From: Cloeon dipterum
Taxonomy: Eukaryota; Arthropoda; Insecta; Ephemeroptera; Baetidae
DNA: 64,000 nt
Reading direction: 5' to 3'
Assembly (NCBI RefSeq): GCF_949628265.1
Contig: NC_088787.1
Location: 25,596,501-25,660,500 of the forward strand
Below the pieces are notes generated by a model, which made no database searches, had not been told where the DNA came from, and saw only the letters and a list, made by a program, of their open reading frames with translations. Every line of letters starts with the position of its first letter. The first letter of the stretch is position 1. This document shows positions 639-41,200 of the stretch, piece by piece. A program made the translations under genes and the position numbers.

Positions 639-1468
639 ATAGCTGAGCAGTTATTTGCGAGATTGGAGGTCGATTGGACGCGATTTTTCAGCGTTGAAAT
701 TTTTAGGTGGCAGTCATATTTGCTTAAAGTACTTGTTAATAGATGGTGAAATTCCAAATTTGAAGCTCGGGAATGGGGGCGTTCCCTATTTTTTCGGTAT
801 CTCAAAAATACCCAAAAAAGGAATTCTGTTAATGAACTCTAAACTGCAACTCTTGACTGCGTTGAGGCATCACGTTGAAATTTTCACTGCCCAACCTAGT
901 TTTTAATCCTGAACAACTTTTGCATTTACAAAAAATTCGCAGGTCGAAGGTCAAGGTCACCTTTTGCGACCTTTTTTTGAAAATTCAAAATTAAGGGATG
1001 ATAGCCCCCTACGATTTTTTTGGGGTTAAGGGCTGAAATGTAGCCCGTGAAATTATGCACAAGTACACCAAGTTTCATAGGTGCAATCGCGATACTTTTG
1101 CTGCAATTTGAATTTGAAGTTTGAAAACCTGCTCGAGGCCGCTTGACCGCGCATGCACTCAGAGCGGCGAGTTCGCCTCTCGTTCTTCAAGTTGAATTTT
1201 TTCGCATTTCACTTGCTTAGAAACACCAAGAGGGCCTAGGGTAGACCAAGGAAGGTCGAAATCGACCTTCAGGGTCTGTCCCTGACGTGACCCTGAGATA
1301 CAAAATTTCGAAAATTTCCAATTTCATCGAACTTGGTGTCTTTTCATAGGTTTTCACTACTGTACAGCTCAAATATAGAGCCAAAATTGCCGAATTACAA
1401 TCCTGAAACCGGTTCTTGAAGTAATTGTGGTAGCCATTCATCCAGACGTGATGTGCAAAATGGTCAAA
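639..1468 (+). repeat. Left arm of large near-perfect inverted repeat (830 bp)
   Basis: Positions 639-1468 are the reverse complement of 1780-2609; paired positions always sum to 3248. I found a single mismatch (T at 1358 against G at 1890) and no indels. The match stops abruptly outside the arms (638/2610) and turns into weak similarity inside them. The arm contains palindromic sub-motifs near 1251-1270 and one TCAAGGTCA nuclear-receptor-type half site at 951-959. Short open frames occur in both arms, but they are mirror copies of each other and resemble no family I know. Possible origins: a foldback element, a hairpin-RNA locus, or an assembly artefact. Confidence 0.9.
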
Positions 1469-1779
1469 TTTTGAAATCTTTAATTTATGATATGATTCTT
1501 CTGTTTTGTACACACAAAGTTCATATTGAGTGTTAAAAATTAACGATTGTTTTTTAAAAAAAGTTAAAAAAATTTATTTAGAGCAAATAACAATTAAATT
1601 ACATGTTTAATTTTTTTTATAAAAAGAAAGGAAACAAAAATATTTGGTTTTTAAAAGTAGCTTATTTGCCAGTGCATTTAATAACATTTTTTCATAAGTA
1701 TTAAGCATAAGATCCTTTATTATCAACACATATTATGAACTTCATGTGTGCAAAATAGATAGAATTAAGAATTTAAAAT
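1469..1779. other. Spacer/loop of the inverted repeat
   Basis: This is 311 bp of very AT-rich DNA between the two arms. Its two ends still show diverged inverted similarity: AAGTTCATATTGAGTG near 1518 matches the reverse complement of the stretch around 1720-1745. The original inverted repeat therefore probably reached further in, and the central part has decayed. No gene is visible. Confidence 0.7.
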
Positions 1780-2609
1780 TTTGACCATTTTGCACATCAC
1801 GTCTGGATGAATGGCTACCACAATTACTTCAAGAACCGGTTTCAGGATTGTAATTCGGCAATTTTGGCTCTATATTTGAGCTGTACAGTGGTGAAAACCT
1901 ATGAAAAGACACCAAGTTCGATGAAATTGGAAATTTTCGAAATTTTGTATCTCAGGGTCACGTCAGGGACAGACCCTGAAGGTCGATTTCGACCTTCCTT
2001 GGTCTACCCTAGGCCCTCTTGGTGTTTCTAAGCAAGTGAAATGCGAAAAAATTCAACTTGAAGAACGAGAGGCGAACTCGCCGCTCTGAGTGCATGCGCG
2101 GTCAAGCGGCCTCGAGCAGGTTTTCAAACTTCAAATTCAAATTGCAGCAAAAGTATCGCGATTGCACCTATGAAACTTGGTGTACTTGTGCATAATTTCA
2201 CGGGCTACATTTCAGCCCTTAACCCCAAAAAAATCGTAGGGGGCTATCATCCCTTAATTTTGAATTTTCAAAAAAAGGTCGCAAAAGGTGACCTTGACCT
2301 TTGACCTGCGAATTTTTTGTAAATGCAAAAGTTGTTCAGGATTAAAAACTAGGTTGGGCAGTGAAAATTTCAACGTGATGCCTCAACGCAGTCAAGAGTT
2401 GCAGTTTAGAGTTCATTAACAGAATTCCTTTTTTGGGTATTTTTGAGATACCGAAAAAATAGGGAACGCCCCCATTCCCGAGCTTCAAATTTGGAATTTC
2501 ACCATCTATTAACAAGTACTTTAAGCAAATATGACTGCCACCTAAAAATTTCAACGCTGAAAAATCGCGTCCAATCGACCTCCAATCTCGCAAATAACTG
2601 CTCAGCTAT
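1780..2609 (-). repeat. Right arm of large near-perfect inverted repeat (830 bp)
   Basis: This is the mirror copy of 639-1468 with one mismatch. It ends about 190 bp before the splice acceptor of the plus-strand exon at 2803. If that gene is transcribed through here, the repeat lies in its intron and the pre-mRNA could fold into a stem of about 830 bp with a loop of about 311 nt. Confidence 0.9.
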
Positions 2610-2802
2610 AATTCATCTCTGTAATTTTCTTAACTTACCAGGCTACTTTTGGCTGCTGCTGAAATTTCATTTTGAAAATTAAAAAAAAATGATAATAATT
2701 AGAATTGTTTCCGAGGCCCTTCTCTCATCTTTCTTCCGCTCATTCTTCACTGCCGATGGTTGCATCCAGTAAAACTAATTTTCACATCTGGTTCCTGCGC
2801 AG

Positions 2803-3200
2803 GAGTGGAGGAGGGTGGACATCCGCCGCTGGGCTACGGCGACTACTACTTCCGCGACTCATTTGAGATGAACGCGCCTGAGATGGAGGTGAAGAGCAGC
2901 CGCGGCGCCGGACTGGTGGCCAACCGCGAGGGCCTGGCGCTGCAGCCGCACCAGGGGGTGGTGCCGGCGGGGGAGACCGGCGTCACCTCAGGGGGCCGCC
3001 CCTTCAACCTGGTACGCGTGTTTGTGCCGTCGTTCTTGCTTGTGGCGCTCGCGCTGACTCTCGTGCTGGTGCTGGTGCTTGAGACGGACTCGGAGTTCTT
3101 CGGAGGTCTGCGCGGCCTCCCCGAGATCGTCATCTTGCGCCAGGAGTACTACGAGCCGGCCAAGCAGTACTTCCGCCAGAAGCTGGCCGCCGTCGTTTAA
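2803..3200 (+). CDS. 3'-terminal coding exon of a single-pass membrane protein (partial gene)
   Basis: An open frame enters after a good acceptor (TTCCTGCGCAG at 2792-2802, two bases completing the first codon) and ends at TAA 3198-3200, giving about 132 residues. The strongly coding-like GC-rich codon use stands out from the AT-rich flanks. The exon encodes a Gly-rich, hydrophilic stretch, then a hydrophobic helix of about 22 residues (VFVPSFLLVALALTLVLVLV) and a tail of about 40 residues with acidic and aromatic positions (DSEFFGGL, QEYYEPAKQYF). The protein therefore ends in a membrane anchor with a short conserved-looking tail. I do not recognise it with certainty; the tail faintly recalls FRMD3/FRMD5-type FERM proteins, from memory only. 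Upstream exons lie outside the window. Confidence 0.6.
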
Positions 3201-7234: not shown

Positions 7235-10200
7235 ATGTTTTCGAATGCATCTAAAAACGTAAACCGTCTCTTAGCAGCACGGGGCTCGGTGAGACTTCAT
7301 TTTAAATCATTATTCTGCAAATTTATACTCTAAATTTTCTAGCTTCGATGCTCTCCAAGCCCAAGGTGGGTTAACAAAATCCACCGTGGACCCGAGTAGG
7401 ACAATTTAATATAGCTCATCGAATAGTTTTTCTAATTAAACACTTCCAGGCCGTCGAAAAAGTCCGTGTCTGGTGTAGGCTTTGCTCTGGCTGGAGCAAC
7501 CGTTGCCAGCGCCGCCCTTTACGCTCGCTCGGGCAAAACTCTATTCAGTCTGCCGTTCATCGGTATTTTGTTCGAGGAGAAGGAAAACCAAGACACGGAA
7601 GAATACGTCCACTTACCGGTGGAAGAGGTGAAAAAGTCAGTCGTGGAAGAGATTCTCGAGATGCGTCCGGTCGAGCGATTCGAAGCGGCCAACAAACTGC
7701 TCACAGAGTTGACCACCAACTTGGGTTTGAGTGTTTTTGCCGCTGTGTCGCTAAACAGTTTGGCCGCGAAGTCGATCAGAGGTAAAAACAGGCTTTACTG
7801 GCAGTTGTTAAAAAATATATTTCATCACCTGTGATTTTTCATAATTATTTTAGGTTTGGAATAATTTTTTTAATAATGGTTTCGCGGTCTCTGTTTTTTA
7901 CTGAACAAATTAAATATCCAGAAATAAGTACATAGTAAAAATGAAATCTTTCACCTGTAATAGAGATTAATAAATAATTTCTACATAAACAGCGTTGGAA
8001 GACGACATGTCAATTTTCGCCAAAGACCTCAGCAACAGCACCTCTCACGACTCTGGCAGTGACGAAGCTGTGCTACGCCTGCTCATAAGCGACAAGGAAC
8101 TGCAACTGACTCTGATCAAGGCTCAGAAAACCACGTTGGAGGCCAAGTAATGCTTAATATCAAACGAACCCTTTTTAGAGTGGATTTATTGAAATGCGCA
8201 GGGATCGTTTGGAGGCCCTGGAGGGCATTCTTCGCGAGCTGTGTTGCTCCAAGATCCCCCTGTCTGAGGAGGTAATCGAAAAGGCAGAAAACGGACTGAG
8301 CGAGGCGCGAACGGAGCTGAAGGAAGCTGAGGATTTCCTGGACCTTTCGATCAAAAGCACTGGCCCGCCAGAGGCACTGCTCAGCCGCGTCATCCGTTTG
8401 ACCACCGACATGGAGGCAATTAAACTGCAGATTCCCTCTACTTGTTATTATTATTTTTTTTTTTAATTTGCCACAGGAGGACCTGGGTTTCTCGTTATCC
8501 GGCCTGTGCAGCACCGAGACCAGGGAACTGTACAACCGCGCTTTGGCTCTGCATTTGGAACAGACGCGACGCAGCACCGAGAGGCAGATGGTGGGTTATG
8601 CAACCGGCCCGACTGGTGTGTTAATGGCGGCTGCATATGTTTCAGGATGAGTTGGGCAGACGATCAAGCGAGCTGAGACAATTTGTTGGCGAGGGAGGCG
8701 AGAGGCGCCGGTTGGACGCACTTCTCAACAGCAAAGAGGAAGAGTTGCGCCGGAGCGTCCAAGAGCAGAACCACTTCCAAGTATTCTATTAAAAATAAAA
8801 ATTGTTCAAAATTCAATTTGCTATCCTCGCAGTTAAACCAGCTGAAGAAAAAGCTGGAGCACCAGATCTTAGAGGAGAAGCAGGCCAGTATAAAGGGGGC
8901 CGCGCTGAAACATGAGTCCGTTCTCAGAGCCAGGAGTTTCACGTTTGACAGGGAGGTGAAGGATAAGGTGAAAAAAGCCAAGGAAGACCTTGATAAGTGG
9001 AAGCTGGAAATCAGTCAAGATCTCGCGGAGTTGGGTCCAAATATGAAAAGTATTGCAAACATTTTTAATCTAAAATTCAAAATTTGTATTTTTCACAAAA
9101 TCGTATTGAAATCAGGAAAATTTATCTGAATTGTAAAATGAGACAAATTTAATGTCTGTGGTTATCTCATCACTCCTGTAAATGGAAATCGAAGTGAAGC
9201 CTTTCGCGGTGTTTTTTAAATTCGAAAATTTAGATTCAATTTATTTTAAAGGTGTAATAGGAAAATAAAATCTATAAAGTAAATTAGATTTTTCCTGGAA
9301 AAAATCTCATTTTATCTTGAGATTTTAATTTCCTTTTAAATATTGTGAAACCAGCCTATTCTTATATTGCTATTATTCTATATGCTACCTGCCATCTCAT
9401 GTGGTAGAATCTGTCGCAAAATTTGTGTATGAATGTGAACCTATTTTTTTTAATTTTCCTTACGGAAATAACAACCGTTTAATATCAGTAATAATTTTAA
9501 ATTTAATTACTCGATTAAGTAGGATTTGTAAATTTAACCGGAAAAAATTAATCAGGGCACGAGTTGAACTTGAAGAAGCTGAGCGACGCATTCACCTTCG
9601 CCAACGCTTGCTTCCGACTTGAGTCGGCACTGACGAGCGACCCGTTCCCACAGCTCGACTGGAAGCACCAGGTCCAGCCCATCAAGCACCACTTACAGCA
9701 GATGAGCGACAACGCCGAGGGCAAACGCGACTTTGTGCGCGCCGTCATCGACAGTGTGCCAGTGGCGGCCATCAACCGCGGCGTGTACACGCAGAACGCG
9801 CTGCGGCAGCGCTTCTTTGAGATGGAGCCGACCGCGCGCAAGGTGTCGCTGCTCAAGAAGAGAGACCACAACTCAACCATCCTCTATCTCATGTCCTACT
9901 TGCGCTCAATTCTGCTCGTGCGGCCCGTCGGCTGCATTTCCAACCTCGAGAAGACCAACCAGCCAGTCCAGATCGGCGACCTGACCAACGAAGAACTGCT
10001 TGATAGGGCTAGGTAAGCTATGCAATATCTCCCGCCCAGAAATTTTTCGCCCAAGAATATTCCCGGAATATACCAACTTTTACCGGGAACATTCTGAAAG
10101 AATATTTTTGTCATATGAGAATGTCACGCCTTTATTTCGCCCTGGCACATTCCTGCGAATATTCCGTCAAGAATATTTTGGGAATATTTCTGGAATATTC

Positions 10201-19192: not shown

Positions 19193-20888
19193 TTAGTATG
19201 GTGGTGGCTGGTGGTAGGGATTGTGCGGCTGCTGCTGCTGCTGTCCCATCTGGCCCTGAGGCATCTGCCGCTGCAACTGCGCCATCAGTGTAGGATTTTG
19301 TTGTTGCTGCTGCTGCGCCTGGCCTTGGCCCTGCTGCAATTCGTGAACAAACATGAAATTTGCGAAACCAAAGCAGGCGTAGTCATGCGCTTACCATGGA
19401 CATCATTTGCTGGCGCATTCGCTGCTGCTGCTGTTGTTGCTGCTGCTGCTGCTGCTGGAACTGGTTTGGCATCTGCATGCCCCGATTGTATCCCTGCTGG
19501 GCCCCTTGGGCCTGCATTTGGGGCTGGGCCTGACCCATGGGGCCCATCGTGTTCATGGTCACGTTTGGGGCCTGCTGCTGCTTTGTAGAAGTAAGAGTTT
19601 AGATTTATATTGCTAACAAGGAAACTTAAGATTCGACGTTAAAGTTGTTGGCGAAACCATTGCATTCGTGAAGCCTCTCCTAATATGAAACTCTTACAGT
19701 GATGGAAAATTTTCTAGTCGACAATTTCAGCATTTTGGAGTTTAAAAAAAATTACCCAAGATTTCAAAATTGATTTAAAAATACAGTTAAGCTGAAATAA
19801 TATTTATGGTTTGTAAGACAATGTTCAATGAGACATATCGATCAGTGGGTCATATTTTAAATCTGGAAAAAATTAAGATTTCCCACAAGGGTTAGTTTCT
19901 GGCTATGTAAATTTTTTATGGTTATTTGTAGAGAAAAAAAACTTTACACTGAAAACTGAAATTTTCTATTTTTACATGCCAACAAATTTTCTTGCATCAT
20001 TTATATACCCTAAAAATGTGTTAATTTAAAATGTGACAGTTTATTGATTTGATTTTTTTTATAATTTTTAGATCGACAAAAATGGTGTTACATGACCTGG
20101 CGGTCAGCTCAGAAATTTTTGAAACATTATCTCAAACCCATAATGAGCCATTAGCCAATTTCCCGGCAAAAGTCTAAAATGTAGGGACTTCTCTGGAAAA
20201 TCGAAAATGAGCCATTGATGGATTTGTCTGGTCAAGTAGAATCTACCTAAAAATATCACGGTTGAATGAGAGCTGGTTTTACAATTTGATTTTTAATATA
20301 TCTGAGGTTAAATCCCAAAATAATTTTAAATCTTTGGAAAAACAAAAACTTGCAAACTGCAAACTCCGTCGAATAAGAAAATTTCCCCTGGTGAAACTTC
20401 TTCAATTATTTGGCCAAATAATACCAAAACGTCAAATCCTAACAATTTCCTTGTAAGATTATTTTCAATTTCAATTTTTTCAAACTCGAGGTAATTTTCA
20501 ACACGGAGCATGGATATTAATGTTGCGTTAAGTTGTTTTTATCTGATTATTTTTAATATAATTTCAAGGGCATTGCGAGAATTCTGGGAAATTTTTAAAA
20601 CTGCTTAACAGCTGTTCATAAGGTATGTTTTGTAATACATAGTTATCAATCTGGTCTTTATTTCAATCTAGTTTATTAAATTGAATTCATGTTTCTTGAG
20701 TGAAACATGACATTTTTGTAATAAATCGTTGCAATGAGTTAAAAATGAATTTACGAAATTTATCCAATGTAAAACTTTCACCAAAATGCTCGTATGACCT
20801 TTAAGGTCGTTTAATTTTTGCAGATCAAGTGTGCCATACCTGCATGTAGGGTTGCTGGGGTCTAACAGGGCCCATGGGCCGCTGCTGT

Positions 20889-20920
<32 letters not shown>

Positions 20921-22957
20921 CATGTACAGCTGCTCCTGCTGCTGCCGCGCCAACTGCTGTTGCTGTTGTTGCTGCTGTTGGTAGTTCTGGGGCTGCTGGG
21001 CTGCCTGGGGTCCAAAGCCCCCACCGCCCATCACTTGGCCCTGGCCCATGGCCTGCTGTTGGCCATAATAGGCACCCTGGGCCATACCTTGAAAAAGATC
21101 AGGTGTCAAGATATATTCTCACTAGGAATCGCCCCTGGGTTCATTTTTTTTGTGTGTTGGCAATTTCATGAGCGAAGGGGGCGAAGAAAGCCAAGCATAA
21201 CCCCTAAGACCTTTTCATTCTTGGTCAAGGCAGAATTTTTAGTGCAGTTTATTATGTTGCCATGCCAAGAGGCGGAATGATAGCAAAACAGGCGGGCTTG
21301 TCTCACCTTGTGGTGGCATGTTAGGAGGGTATCCCTGGTTCATGTTCTGAGGCTGTTGTTGCTGATTGGGAAACATGCCTGGCTGCTGGCCCTGCTGCAG
21401 GGGGCCTTGGGCCATGCCGGGCCCCTGGGGCCGCATTTGCTGCCTAGAACCACACGAAACGACATGCTGCTTCAAACCACTCGGGACGACATCACAATCA
21501 AGTCACATGGAGAAGTCACAAAAAATAATGATCGGGGAGAAATGCACATCATTGTCTCGTTCCGGAAAACAGGAACAAAAAGTATAAATCGTGCGTGAGT
21601 TGCTTCTCTCGTTAAATAAAATTTCTTGTTATCATTTCTCACACTGGTTGGTCATTTTGTCCTGATTTATCGCTTCCCGTTAATTTCTATCCTCTAGGAA
21701 TCTTATTTATTTTGGCATTTAATAGAAACTAAGATCATTAACAGGGAAAAAATTGATTCATGAAGGTGATTTTCTACCAAAAAATTTTTGATGACGTAAA
21801 ATATTAGTAGATTACCCATTTCAATAATGAATGTGGGTTTGGAAGTTTTTTTTAAGTCGGAATTAAAAAAATGGTTAACTTGGAATATGAATTCAGTAGC
21901 AGAGATGTTTTAACGATTAAGAATATGTGACCTGGTAAATATTCACGAAATCAGGAATGTTTAATGTAAATAAAATTTTCGTTTGGAGATTTTAGAAGGA
22001 AGGATCATCGACTTGATTCCTAAGTCTGATTATCAGAGTGTTATTTGAAAACAGAAGAGAGAAATAGTGTGTGAGCTGGACGTGTCTCATGTGTCCCTCA
22101 GGAAACATACCTGACCAACTGTTGGCGCTGGATGGCCTGGTAGTTAGTGTTCTGGCCCATGAACTGGTTCTGCGGCTGCCGCATGCGTAGCATGTTGGAC
22201 AACGCCTGCTTTGATGGCATGTTGGCGCGCTCAAAGTTGGCCCGCTGCGGCATCTGTTGTTGCTGCTGCTGGTTGAAATATTGCTGCTGCTGTTGCGACT
22301 GTTGTTGTTGTTGTTGCTGCTGCTGTTGACTGTACCACTGCTGCTGATGCTGCTGTTGCTGCACCTGCTGCTGCGGAGGAGGGTACATGCCACCCTGGTA
22401 ACCCATTTGCTGACCCATGTTACCCTGTTCCAAATTAATTAAAATATGAGTTACTAGGCAAAGTCGGAAAAATATTAAAATTCAAAATTTGATCAATTTT
22501 GCAGTTTGTTTGTTTAACTCAAATTGCTTGGATGTTGTTCCAAGTTCCAACTCAATTTTTTAATTTAAGCTGTATTTATAGCAGCTCAAAATAACAGAAG
22601 CGACTAAAATGAACAAATATGAGCGAGTCACGAATATTTTAAAAATTTCCAGTTTAATTAAATTATATTCATCGCTCTCTAAATACACCATTAAATTTTC
22701 ATTTTTGATCCTACCTGCATCTGGGGGATTCCCATCATGCCCTGTGTCTGCTGTTGGGGAACGCCGACTTGCTGAGCAGCCTGGGCTGCAACTTGTGCGG
22801 CAGCAGCTTGGGCGGCCATGGCTGGATGACCTGGTGGTGGCTTCTTATTTCTTCTTGGCCTCGCAGCCTTGCTCATACGCCGGCCCCTCGGCGATTGGTC
22901 CGTCGAGTTCGGTGTGTCCGCTTTCGTGTCTTTATTGCAGAGCACACATGGACAAAT
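19193..22957 (-). other. MED12: MED12 exons 26-31: Gln-rich C-terminus
   Basis: Exon coordinates: 22715-22957, 22111-22424, 21307-21443, 20840-21087, 19395-19580, 19193-19333. The roughly 420 residues are dominated by Gln, Met, Pro and Gly, with several CAG/CAA tracts (longest around 22290-22330 and 20885-20925). This is the OPA-like tail typical of MED12. The repeats are interrupted by CAA codons and unlikely to be pure microsatellites. The exon 30 acceptor reads AAAG followed by CAG repeats, an NAGNAG-type tandem acceptor. Confidence 0.85.
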
Positions 22958-28900: not shown

Positions 28901-31900
28901 GAGCGAATAATAAAAATTTCAGGAGGAAAGAGTAGCGATAAAAATAAAACTCGGACTGGCAAAAGAAGGAGGTTTCTTTTCATTTTTTGTATCTTTTCGT
29001 TTTACCAGGCTGTTCTGCTGTTCCTCCTTGATGTGCTGCAGCAGCTTGTCAAGGTCGTCGTCGATCTTGGAGTCATCGTAGTCAGGAAGCGGGCCGCGCA
29101 CCTGCACCAACAGACAGAACACACCACAAAAATCTAGCAGCTCTCGACAGTTTAGCCCAACACAATAAGCTAGCCTCTCAGTCATTAGCATACATCTAGC
29201 CAACTAGAGACACAGTCTTATTCTCGATTTCAAATTCATTTGAAACGCATGCTGTTTATTCCAAGTAGGTCGCAACTCTCAGCTTTATTAGTTAAATAAT
29301 GTTCAGTGGTGGTGTAATTTCATCTTCAATATGATTTATTTTTTCCGTAAAACTGAGTAAAATTAATTATTTGCCAGAGTTACGATCTACTTCATGTAAA
29401 ATTCCATTGAAACCACGATGAAAAAATGACAGAAACGCCTTGGGGGATAGGTGACGTAGCGCGATTTCCAAATGGACTAGGAGCTGACCTGAGCAGGCTT
29501 TATGTCTATGCCCGCAAACAGCGACGAGTCTTCATCTTCGCCGATGCCTTGGTTTTTGTTCTGGGCTGGTTGTTGGCCTGTCTGTGCCGCAGGTGGGCCT
29601 GTCAGCAGGTCACCGCGCGATATGAGCGTGCAGAGGTAAGCATCATGAGAAAATACATCATTGCGGATCAACTCGTAGAAAAGGTGAACCAGGTTGCCAA
29701 ACATCACTTTGTTGGCTGCATTAGGATTATCTTCTGTGAACAAGGAATGTGTACTTAGCCTGAATGGCTTTTTATAGAAATTCTTTTAATAACATTTCAC
29801 ATTTAAAAATTACTACCCTTCTCAATAAGTATTAAAAAGGCAGTTAAACAAAAAAATAAGGGATAGTTGATTTTTTCTACGTCCTAGTTTTAATTAACTT
29901 CTTTTTCTATCTAGTAAGTTAGGTTAAAGATATTTTAGTCCTAAGTTTCACCAAGTAAATTCTGGCTGGTTTTGATTTTCTTTAGTAGACAATATTGAAC
30001 AGTAGTGTGAAAAAAGGTAAAGAAGTTTGAAAAATTACCTAAAACTGGTGCTTCTGTGTCTAAAAAGTGCATCAGGAGGCCCTGGAAGATGGGTAAACCC
30101 TGTGGCGGGCCACCATTACTTGAGTCAACTGAGTCTTTCTCGTCAGGTACGTCTGCAGGCTCAGAGGCCTGAGCTAAGTCAGCTTGGCGCCTCTCTAAAA
30201 GCTTGGCCACAGCCATGGCACGGTGTTCACCCCACCGACATGTCGATACCGCCCATTCACACAAGAGCTGAACTATTGGTGCGTCCTGATTGACCGGCTG
30301 GATAGAATAAAATTGATTACTTATTTATTCCCAACAAGGATTGAGCTTATAAAAGCTATCCACTTGTTCGTTTATAAAAAAATCAAATTATCACAATAAT
30401 AAAGTTTCAAATTGTCAAAGAATTTTGTTTTACACAAAATTAACAAGTGGAAAAATTATGTTAGCATGATAAGCTCAAATGGCAACTTTATCAAACGTGT
30501 ATTTAAATGAAATTTCAACTCCTCTGAAAGATGAATTTTTTTCATGCACACCTGATAAAGCAAGTACATAACATGATGCTGAAAGAAACTAAAACTCACG
30601 TTTTCCTGCCTCTCTTTTTGCTCAGTCACAGACTGAGGCGCAACATTTGGAAAAACTTTAACGTAAAGGCTATCCAAGTTGCTTGTTTCCATTCGGTCAA
30701 AACTATACCGGTCCAGAGCATCCAAGGCCGCTAGAACCTTACTCATTGTGGTCCCTTGAGGTGATTGCATCGTAGAGTTCAACTCTTTAGTGCAAATACT
30801 GGCTTCACTACCTGCTTTGCTCTGTTGCCATTTGTCACATGACCATCGGCCTTCTGCCGCTCGGCTTCGGTTTCTTATAAAACCTTCGGCAACCTTAAGC
30901 TGGTTCCTGTGAAAGAGACAGAATTAAATTAGCAACTTTTCATGCATTCTATCCAAAGGTCAAACCTGATCGTAGGGTTATCTGGCCGAGGTGGCATTGG
31001 CAACAGAAAAAGTGGACAAGGCAGTAAGTCCAAAGGGGAGCCATTCAGGGCTGGTGGACACTTGTGCTCACCCAAATTGTTCCACACCAGAGCTGTGGGA
31101 CACTCCAGGGCGACGGTCTAAACATGAGAGTAGAAAATCCAATTCATGTATAAAATGTATTTTAAATAAATAGCATTAACACACCTGTAGAATGGTAGAG
31201 AAGGTGAGGACTACACTGCGGTGGTGTTTACAACTGATATAATCCTTGAAGGCTGCATTGATCTGGCTGAGGGAGGGCTGCATGGAATTGGTCTGAGGGC
31301 TCGCTGGTCCCGTGGCTTCAGCCACCATTTGGCTCAATCGGCGGCACGCCAAATAACTCAATTTCCTGCGATGAATATTTTTTTTTTAATTTGATAGGTT
31401 GAAATTTTGAAAATTATTAGGACAAAATATTATACTGCCAATACTTCTACCTCCTGGTTTATTTATTTTGCTGAGTTAACCAAACAATATTTTACTCAAG
31501 GACTCAAATCAAATGATGCTTTAAATAGATAAATATAAATTAAATTGATTGAATGAGAATATAGGTGGGAAAAATTAAATTGCAGGTCTCAATGAGCAAA
31601 ATTATAACGATTCAATTTAATTGTACATCAAAATGAACCTGTTTAATTCCCTATATACATATAGCATGTTTGTGTGGTGATTGCCACAAATTACTTGATT
31701 ACATGGTGCTATAAACTTCCAGACGTTTCCCAATTAAGTTCCAGAATCTCAAGTTCAAGAACATACGATTCCAATATACTATTTCCAAATTTACTTTAAT
31801 TAATTATTCTAAACAAGTGATAAATTACTTTTATAATTATTTGATGGAAATACACAGTAAATTCAGAAAAAAAGATAAACCCAATTTCATTCCTATTAAT

Positions 31901-38200: not shown

Positions 38201-41200
38201 CTAATTCACCTGTGACGCAAAATCTCACTTGAACATATATCCTCCCAATAATGATATCACTTACAAAGCAAAATGACATTAATTGAGGTGATTGATAATG
38301 TGTTTACAGGATGGTGAAGAGCGTGATGGCTATGTGCACCCGACACGGTTGATCAACTTCTTGGTTGGTGTGCGTGGCAAGACCAAAGAAACGATGGCCA
38401 TTGGTGGCCCCTGGAGTCAGTCTCTGGACGGGCCAAATCCTGACAAGGACCCGTCGGTGCTGATCAAGACGGCGATCCGAACGTGCAAAGCGCTGACTGG
38501 GGTTGATCTCAGTCCGTGCACCCAGTGGTACGTTAGCAGCTCCTTTTTCACTCGCTGTTCTCTTCTAACTGCTCCTTCGGAGAATTGGTTTTCAAGGGTC
38601 ACTTTTGTTGGAGTTTAAATCACGACTAATTAATTTGGGTGAAGGAAGAATTCGAAAGATTGGTTTTTTTAAAGAATGAAATTTGTTTCTTTGGAAATTA
38701 TTGAGTTTTTAACTTGAAACACTTGTGACTCTGACTCTCTGGTAACTGGTTGGGTTTGTGTTTTCTTGCCTAAGGCCGCAGCCAATGGAAGAGACATACT
38801 GTTTATTTCGTAAATAATGCGCACAGACTCTTTTTTCCCCAACTTGCAGAAGCGGTTCTTTTGTTGGTTGTAACGAGATTTTGTGTAGTCGGAAAGCCTC
38901 CTCAAAGGCAATTTCAGTGCATGCGCGGTTGCAGGACGGCCGGCCGAGCTGATCCCAGGGCCAAACGAAAGAACGAACCGACCGACCAACCCACAGACAC
39001 GCACATAAGAGCACAATCAATGAACTTTTGATTTATCCACCGCAGGTATCGGTTTGTGGAGATTTACTATCATCGCAGCGAGACCACACACAAGGGCAAG
39101 GTGATCCCGCCGCGTGTTGAAACTGTTGTCCTATTCCTACCAGATGTTTGGAGCTGTTTGCCCACGCGGCTCGAATGGGAGTCGATGCAGCTTGCCTACA
39201 AGAAGCAACTCTGCCGCAAACTCAAGGCCGACGAGGCGCCCGACGCCGCGGCGGCCGCAGAGCCAGCAGCAGCAGTGGCGGCGGCTACGCTCGCGGCTGA
39301 AGAGGCGCCGGAAAACCAAAAGGCATCTCCAAAGCAGATTTTAGTTTTATTTCCACACTTGTTTCTCTCTCTTTCTCTTTCCGTCTCTTTTTCTCTTTCT
39401 ATCTCTCTTTCTCCGTTCTATATTTCTCTTGGTTTGCCCCAACACCAAAATCAGGCTGCGAGTGATGAGACACGCGCGTTGGCCGGCTCAGCTTCTCACT
39501 CTCTCAAAATCGCCGTCGGCTGCAGTGCTGAGCTGGCATTTTGAATCAAAATTCCTTATTATCTCTTATTTCATTCGATGAGTTTTGTTACACACCTGGA
39601 GTACATATTATATTATACCACCATATAATATTTAATTAATTCATTTGGGTTGAATGAGTAGCTTACTTTAGCTTGAGACCCAGTTTTGTTCCCAATGTGA
39701 GAGCAGCTTTCAGACAAAGACTTGCTTAGTCTCGTCAGAAATTTCAATCCAGACTCGAGAAGTGTGTTAGTTGAATGTTTTCCGCTCCATCATTCCATGC
39801 CCGTGGCTAATGCGTGTCGTCTGCTCCCCGCAGGAAGAAGAGAAAATGGAAACGGACAGCGAGAAGAAGCCGGAGCCGACCCACTTCTCTGAGCTTGACG
39901 TCAAAGTCATGAAGGTTGGCAGCCTTTTCACCTAAATTTTGACTTAATTTACATGTCGACTTGTAGCTTTTGTTTCAGGGTTTGATTTACAGAACGTTTG
40001 GTTTTTAAGCTAGATTTCTGTCTCATCAAACCTCAGATATTCATGTTTTATGGTTGGAAACCAATTTCACAACACAATAGTATTCCAGTATTATTTGTTG
40101 CATGAACTCACATTATTTCTCTTGTTTTAAGGAGAGATTTTTTTATGAAGAATGTTTGGTAATTTCTTTAATTTGTGCTACTTTTGAATTCAGGTTAATC
40201 TTTATACTATCCATCTTTTGTATTTAAATTTTTTGTCTCTGGTCTTTCCGTGAAAAAAAAACAGATGCTTTACAAAAAGCCTTGTTGTTTTTTAGCCTTA
40301 ATTAATGTTGGGTGATGTTTAAATGCATGTCTGTGATCAGGTGTCGGAAATGAGGCTTGAGCTGGAGGCGCGAACTCTGAACTCGAAAGGACTTAAATCC
40401 CAGCTGGTGGCACGGCTGACTAAAGCCTTGAAAACCGAGCAAGAGCTGGAAGAAGCCGGCGCCAAGGCTGCTGAGCAGGCGGCTGTGGATAAGGCTGCTG
40501 AATCGGAAGAGACCTCAATGGACCTTCCGACAGAGTCAAGCTCCGAAAAAAAGGTTTTCGGAATTATTACACAAATAGAATTTGAGATGAGACGAGCTAT
40601 TTATATCTTATTAAAAATTCTGCAGGGCTAAGTAATTTTAACTAACCCGGTTTTTATTTTGTCATTTGGTTAAGTGAAAATTCGAATTGGAAGTATTTAA
40701 TTAAAATTAGTGGAATTAACAAATTATAGGCAATATATTCAGTTTGAATTTGTAATCACTTTGAAAAAAATCAAGGAGGACGGCGAAAGGAGCAAGAGCC
40801 ATGAGGACAAGGAAAAGCAGGCGAGATATGAGAGGCGCTTTGTACTGCCTGAAAACTCCCACATCATTGTGCATCCCTCAAAAACAGCCAAGTCTGGCAA
40901 GTTTGACTGCACTTTGATGTCACTGTCGCTCCTTCTGGACTACAGACAAGAGGACACCAAGGTACTTGGGACTTCAATACTTAACCATCCAGATAAAGAC
41001 GTTTTAATTTTGCTTTAGGAACATTCCTTTGAAGTGTCGCTCTTTGCAGAGCTCTTTAATGAAATGCTCAGAAGAGACTTTGGTTTCCGCATATACAAAG
41101 CGTTTGTGGACTTTCCTGAAAAGCCGAAAATTGAAGAGAAGGTGAGGGTGTTACTATTTAACTCCCATGAAAAAGTCCAAGCATTGTTTGATTAGGAAAA

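Follow-up and report, generated by a model that had tools for sequence, protein, structure and literature searches.

The long inverted repeat in a 64-kb window of Cloeon dipterum DNA is very probably a copy of a recently active, non-autonomous transposon family

Structure and boundaries of the inverted repeat

The hairpin near the start of the analysed window, a 64,000-nucleotide stretch of the Cloeon dipterum genome (contig NC_088787.1), is in all probability a member of a family of non-autonomous cut-and-paste DNA transposons that was active recently. A long inverted repeat had been proposed here by a sequence-only reading, and it is real: the arms, at 639-1485 and 1763-2609 of the window, are each 847 nt in length, are separated by 277 nt and differ at six of the 847 positions (946/2302, 1358/1890, 1469/1779, 1473/1775, 1478/1770 and 1479/1769). 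A single difference had been claimed in the first 830 nt, at 1358/1890, and this one was confirmed; however, a second, 946 G against 2302 T, had been overlooked. The window was scanned for inverted repeats of at least 35 nt, no more than 6 kb apart, from a 14-nt seed. The only others found were one of 65 nt at 80% and one of 36 nt at 75%, and the 847-nt repeat exceeds chance expectation by far.

Homology among the other copies starts at GAGCAG (window 645) and stops at CTGCTC (2603). The complete element, a near-full palindrome of 1959 bp at 645..2603, has the ends GAGCAGTTAT...ATAACTGCTC in common with these copies. Alignment of the arms placed the left terminal inverted repeat (TIR) at 645..1485 on the plus strand and the right one at 1763..2603 on the minus strand, each about 841 bp, on either side of a 277-bp spacer, the hairpin loop (1486..1762, plus strand), which is shared with other copies. 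Comparison of the flanks, in which the window copy is locus L022, identified the target-site duplication (TSD) AGCT at 641..644 on the left and at 2604..2607 on the right. Positions 639-644 and 2604-2609 are host DNA and lie outside the element. AGCT reads the same on both strands and the outermost AT/AT match as well, which makes the repeat seem to extend 6 nt past each end of the element.

The spacer search retrieved 30 loci, 23 with both ends present and 7 without. Exact 4-bp duplications flanked 20 of the 23 two-ended copies, as against 7 of 506 mispaired flanks in which different copies were paired as a control. The exact duplication was absent from the other three and also from L082, L086 and L087; the last two were among five shorter copies, the remainder of which (L083, L084 and L085) had a duplication. 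Furthermore, both copies within L081 carry a duplication of their own, TGAT and CGAG, read by eye.

Dispersed copies and recent activity

A search of the genome for further copies of the arm, which had been suggested as a check, was carried out on 190 Mb in 10 contigs and many dispersed copies were found. There were at least 41 matches to the left arm (best 40 of 524 candidates scored), at least 40 to the spacer at 84-100% identity (best 40 of 96 candidates scored, the window's own included) and at least 40 to the outer 82 bp (best 40 of 208 candidates scored). The terminal 25-mer, which lies at 645..669 on the plus strand and at 2579..2603 on the minus strand, gave 86 forward and 83 reverse matches with no more than three mismatches, 169 altogether, and the reversed pattern used as a control gave none. 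The termini were located for 146 of the 169 (96 exact, 50 variant at base 12), and these formed 63 facing pairs within 8 kb and left 20 termini unpaired. The paired ends enclosed 1955-1985 bp in 52 of the 63 pairs, less in nine and more in two. Further end searches added a terminus at C3:16217403 and two old ends. The viral contigs contained no exact match to the terminal 25-mer. Empty sites were sought by comparing 23 joined flanks with 90 loci and the window; none of the 102 matches covered more than 20 bases on each side of the junction, and four junction overlaps of 9-13 bases were the copies' own loci (L024, L031, L040, overlapping L020). A keyword search of the literature did not find the family, which may nevertheless have been published.

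An assembly fold-back, or a chimeric read that duplicated one arm, had also been raised and would produce near-identical arms such as these. However, the palindrome halts at the ends of the family, the flanks differ, the 4-bp duplication is present and fits the family, the great majority of paired copies (the 52 of 63) are nearly equal in length and the spacer is common to many copies. These observations contradict an artefact, the probability of which is close to negligible.

The family was active recently, because two copies on contig C2, L031 and L032, show no difference along 1973 bp. Two further copies, in inverse order and 441 bp apart within L081:241-4615, have no differences in 1967 positions, which looks like the outcome of a local jump in the very recent past. 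Between the window copy and a sister on contig C3 (L021), 9 of 1959 positions differ. The mean pairwise difference was 4.6% among 25 copies compared after orientation by the spacer; these are the 23 two-ended copies, taken from the best matches to the spacer, and the two of L081, so that the sample is non-random and leans young.

No Pfam family scored above the cut-off in the seven open reading frames (ORFs) of the region, one of which is the downstream exon described below. Below it were two weak matches with E 0.15, both regarded as chance; one of them, at 12.3 bits against a cut-off of 27, involved the C-terminal portion of a retrotransposon polyprotein. Among the termini listed, no longer relative with the family ends and a recognisable coding region was found. 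The outer ends of L081 lie 4.37 kb apart, and this locus was rejected as an autonomous copy on the grounds that it consists of two complete inverse copies, each with its own duplication. A 3.8-kb copy on C3, which comprises L012 and L068 (C3:15006093-15009912), was rejected as it is split by an insert of about 1.86 kb of other DNA, with what appears to be a 9-bp duplication. The 2.7-kb copy in L082 contains another palindromic element, and L075 is broken off and adjoins a palindromic repeat. The latter, about 435 bp at approximately L075:2473-2907, had 2319 candidates in the genome (40 scored).

Similarity of the two arms within copies

Over about 825 sites, the difference between the arms of a copy was compared with the distance to the nearest arm of another copy. 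The within-copy value was the smaller in 8 of the 25 copies: 1 vs 26 in L037, 3 vs 19 in L041, 3 vs 12 in L025, 8 vs 20 in L023, 12 vs 20 in L040, 24 vs 39 in L046, 14 vs 22 in L039 and 4 vs 5 in L024. In the remaining 17, another copy, mostly a young sister, was equally close or closer. When the young sister was left out, the values were 4 vs 39 for L081 and 3 vs 12 for the window copy. Plain exceptions were L026 (7 vs 5) and L027 (10 vs 8). Of the private variants across the 25 copies, 34 were present in both arms of a copy and 53 in a single arm.

A tree of the arms was constructed from 15 representative copies, chosen to avoid near-identical ones. In 12 of the 15, the arms came out as sisters, with support of 0.97-1.0 in 11 and 0.535 in L024; L027 grouped with L024, and the true exceptions were L031 and L034. 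A tree with one clade of left arms and one of right arms was rejected (delta logL 531, AU p about 1e-44). Since the arms are sisters in 12 of 15 copies and the left/right tree is rejected, the near identity is ascribed to arm-to-arm copying and not to a recent origin of the palindrome. The latter was among three reasons that the sequence-only reading had put forward, and it is disfavoured by the tree. Gene conversion, another of the three, is supported as a pattern by the sister arms and by a mosaic arm in L033. In this arm, the left one when the copy is oriented by its spacer, every distinguishing site between 413 and 767, and site 91 as well, matches the opposite arm of L031, a relative; site 637 carries a private change, and elsewhere the arm keeps its own type. 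In L039, the arms differ only at sites 644-806. From these comparisons, the arms appear to have been homogenised by inter-arm copying in many lineages.

Palindromes formed many times independently from one-armed ancestors, with no copying between arms, would likewise make the arms of one lineage sisters. However, different lineages share one spacer, which points to a single origin, and the mosaic arm of L033 and the confinement of the L039 differences to 644-806 are what partial copying predicts; repeated independent formation is consequently considered unlikely. The shared spacer is most simply explained by a single origin of the palindrome, with homogenisation of the arms afterwards.

Copying between arms is not universal, as shown by the lineage of L031 and L034, whose arms have about 29 differences in 811-820 sites and are placed in different parts of the tree. 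This lineage suggests an exchange between subfamilies. Moreover, the arms of L031, L032, L035 and L038 differ at 28-30 of about 820 sites and the copies differ mutually by 0-5, so that near-identical arms are not needed for spread. In 14 oriented pairs, all of them L028 or L030 against L031-L036 or L038, the crossed arm distances were 10-12 sites below the direct ones. This is read as mixed ancestry of the arms concerned, a true flip of the spacer between these lineages being the alternative.

Seven of the eight shortened copies examined, from nine shortened pairs, have lost the centre of the palindrome, a pattern that was noticed after the fact. The loss of the centre was certain from the length of the deletion alone in L083 and L087 and nearly so in L084 (0.92); the deletion in L085 misses the centre. 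All four deletions in copies under 400 bp (L055, L056, L072 and L086) take the centre, for which the chance was 0.24, 0.12, 0.21 and 0.14, respectively.

A composite was found at L082:1178-3923 (C4:21872107-21874852), where a second palindromic element, complete and about 1680 bp long, is enclosed by 536 bp of each arm. The two junctions are exact mirror images without duplication, which fits one arm with its insertion having been copied to the other side; the outer ends also lack a duplication. It is possible that L082 arose in this way, although it is a single case and other histories are possible. The second element was seen separately at L088:643-2321, with relatives in L089 and L090. It is about 1680 bp long, has the ends GTGTGTG...CACACAC, arms of about 814 bp and a loop of 52-53 bp, and had 1631 candidates in the genome (40 scored). 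The three copies that were read carry 4-bp duplications, ATTT, AAAT and AAAA, by eye.

Comparison with known transposons

The window element is classified with high confidence as a non-autonomous DNA transposon with TIRs of about 841 bp. The family has TIRs with fixed ends across copies and a TSD with a fixed length of 4 bp, it is dispersed and multicopy, and the Pfam scan of the seven ORFs revealed no transposase of its own. As for the superfamily, Sola1/Sola2 is the best guess by elimination, and it is held with no more than even confidence. A GAG terminus may be typical of Sola. CMC/Chapaev transposons have a 4-bp TSD and CAC-type termini. Against this definition, the TSD length would fit and the GAG terminus would not, and the group was set aside provisionally.

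Sola elements have 4-bp target duplications and TIRs of 11-1124 bp (PMC10741241). The duplications of the window family, of 4 bp, varied in sequence and not restricted to TTAA, agree with those of Sola1/Sola2, and the TIR of about 841 bp falls inside the Sola range; the window element differs in that it is without a transposase.

Galileo of Drosophila, from the P superfamily, also has long TIRs that are near-identical within a copy; one copy is described with 959-bp TIRs that are 99.9% identical, and no functional copy was found (PMC4168063). However, Galileo is classed by its transposase and duplicates 7-8 bp (PMC4168063) as against 4 bp in the window family, and none of the 23 two-ended copies showed a matching 7- or 8-bp duplication. 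The Tetris foldback element is similarly made up mostly of inverted repeat, no transposase was found for it, and homogenisation is suggested for sub-repeats inside two copies (PMC4079207). Tetris has tandem sub-repeats in its arms and 8-10-bp duplications (PMC4079207), whereas the duplications of the window family are of 4 bp and the arms of the window element showed no tandem repeats. The insect MITEs of iMITEdb are likewise non-autonomous and multicopy with TIR and TSD, but the 1959-bp window element exceeds the 800-bp length limit applied there (PMC5199201).

Several other groups have different duplications: TA for Tc1/mariner (PMC10741241), TTAA for Kolobok and piggyBac (PMC9587614) and 3 bp for Academ (PMC5199201). 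Ginger has duplications of 4-6 bp but TG...CA ends (PMC10741241), in contrast to GAGCAG...CTGCTC. Galileo, Tetris, Tc1/mariner, Kolobok, piggyBac and Academ are all disfavoured because the duplication is 4 bp and varied in sequence.

Hairpin RNA and host context

The capacity for pairing in a plus-strand RNA that had been claimed for the repeat was borne out. The region 900-2348, folded as plus-strand RNA, is predicted to form a single long stem with an MFE of -1167.5 kcal/mol, a value that has no shuffle control. Both differing pairs within the first 830 nt, 946/2302 and 1358/1890, become G-U pairs in this RNA; in a transcript of the minus strand they would be C-A mismatches. The plus-strand exon that had been proposed at 2803 is plausible: a putative last exon of a host gene at 2803..3200 has an open frame to a stop codon (ORF 2703-3197), a GC content of 0.62 and an acceptor-like CAG at 2800-2802. 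The putative exon had no Pfam match. Insertion into an intron, with read-through, is possible given this downstream exon; no upstream exon was located.

The window is an animal gene region. A Pfam scan of 20 of its ORFs of at least 100 aa identified exons matching Mitofilin (9552-10013, plus strand), Mediator 12 (30459-30923, minus strand) and DBC1 (39032-39541, plus strand). GCT/TGC triplet tracts are present at 19421-19457, 20881-20980 and 22255-22374 and possibly code for runs of glutamine or similar.

The single predicted stem, the G-U pairs and a plausible exon downstream on the same strand are also what would be expected of a dedicated hairpin-RNA locus, that is, an intronic transcript processed by Dicer-2 to siRNAs with a selected regulatory role. 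However, the unit is a mobile repeat, dispersed and flanked by target duplications, and the window copy is one of many. With a sister as close as the one on C3, another large contig, nothing special to the window locus was seen. A dedicated locus, as the sequence-only reading had it, is therefore highly improbable. The window copy may yield siRNA as a by-product. Drosophila hpRNA loci are defined transcribed loci. The window copy could work alike if transcribed, but differs from them in being a dispersed transposon. A 2025 study of Aedes aegypti states that siRNAs from long hairpins may escape antisense-read analyses (PMC12076837).

Discussion

The transposon reading suggests the following sequence of events. 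A transposase acting in trans would recognise the GAGCAG...CTGCTC ends, and the unit would be pasted at cuts staggered by 4 bp, as the duplications indicate. One arm, or part of it, would be copied onto the other and render the arms alike, the pattern that is seen in many lineages; the molecular route may be, for example, repair of a hairpin or cruciform, or gap repair after excision. Transcription of a gene carrying a copy would give a long dsRNA that Dicer-2 could cut. Any dsRNA from the copies would be a by-product of the family as a whole and not a property of the window locus.

A broader proposal, which is put forward tentatively and is more doubtful than the classification above, is that of a self-renewing palindrome. 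It would have originated once, one arm would have been repeatedly rewritten from the other, whole or in tracts of hundreds of base pairs, and the long, almost perfect hairpins renewed in this way could go on supplying the host siRNA pathway with long dsRNA. The proposal perhaps extends to the mirror-image copying of the junction in L082.

A suspected one-off hairpin gene or assembly error is replaced by a young transposon family. The element is largely ordinary, and copying between its arms is its interesting aspect. Caution is called for elsewhere, in that near identity between inverted arms says nothing of when a palindrome originated once its arms have been homogenised. With many copies of one palindrome of common origin, the family is a natural experiment in arm-to-arm copying, in deletion of the centre and, possibly, in the production of dsRNA.
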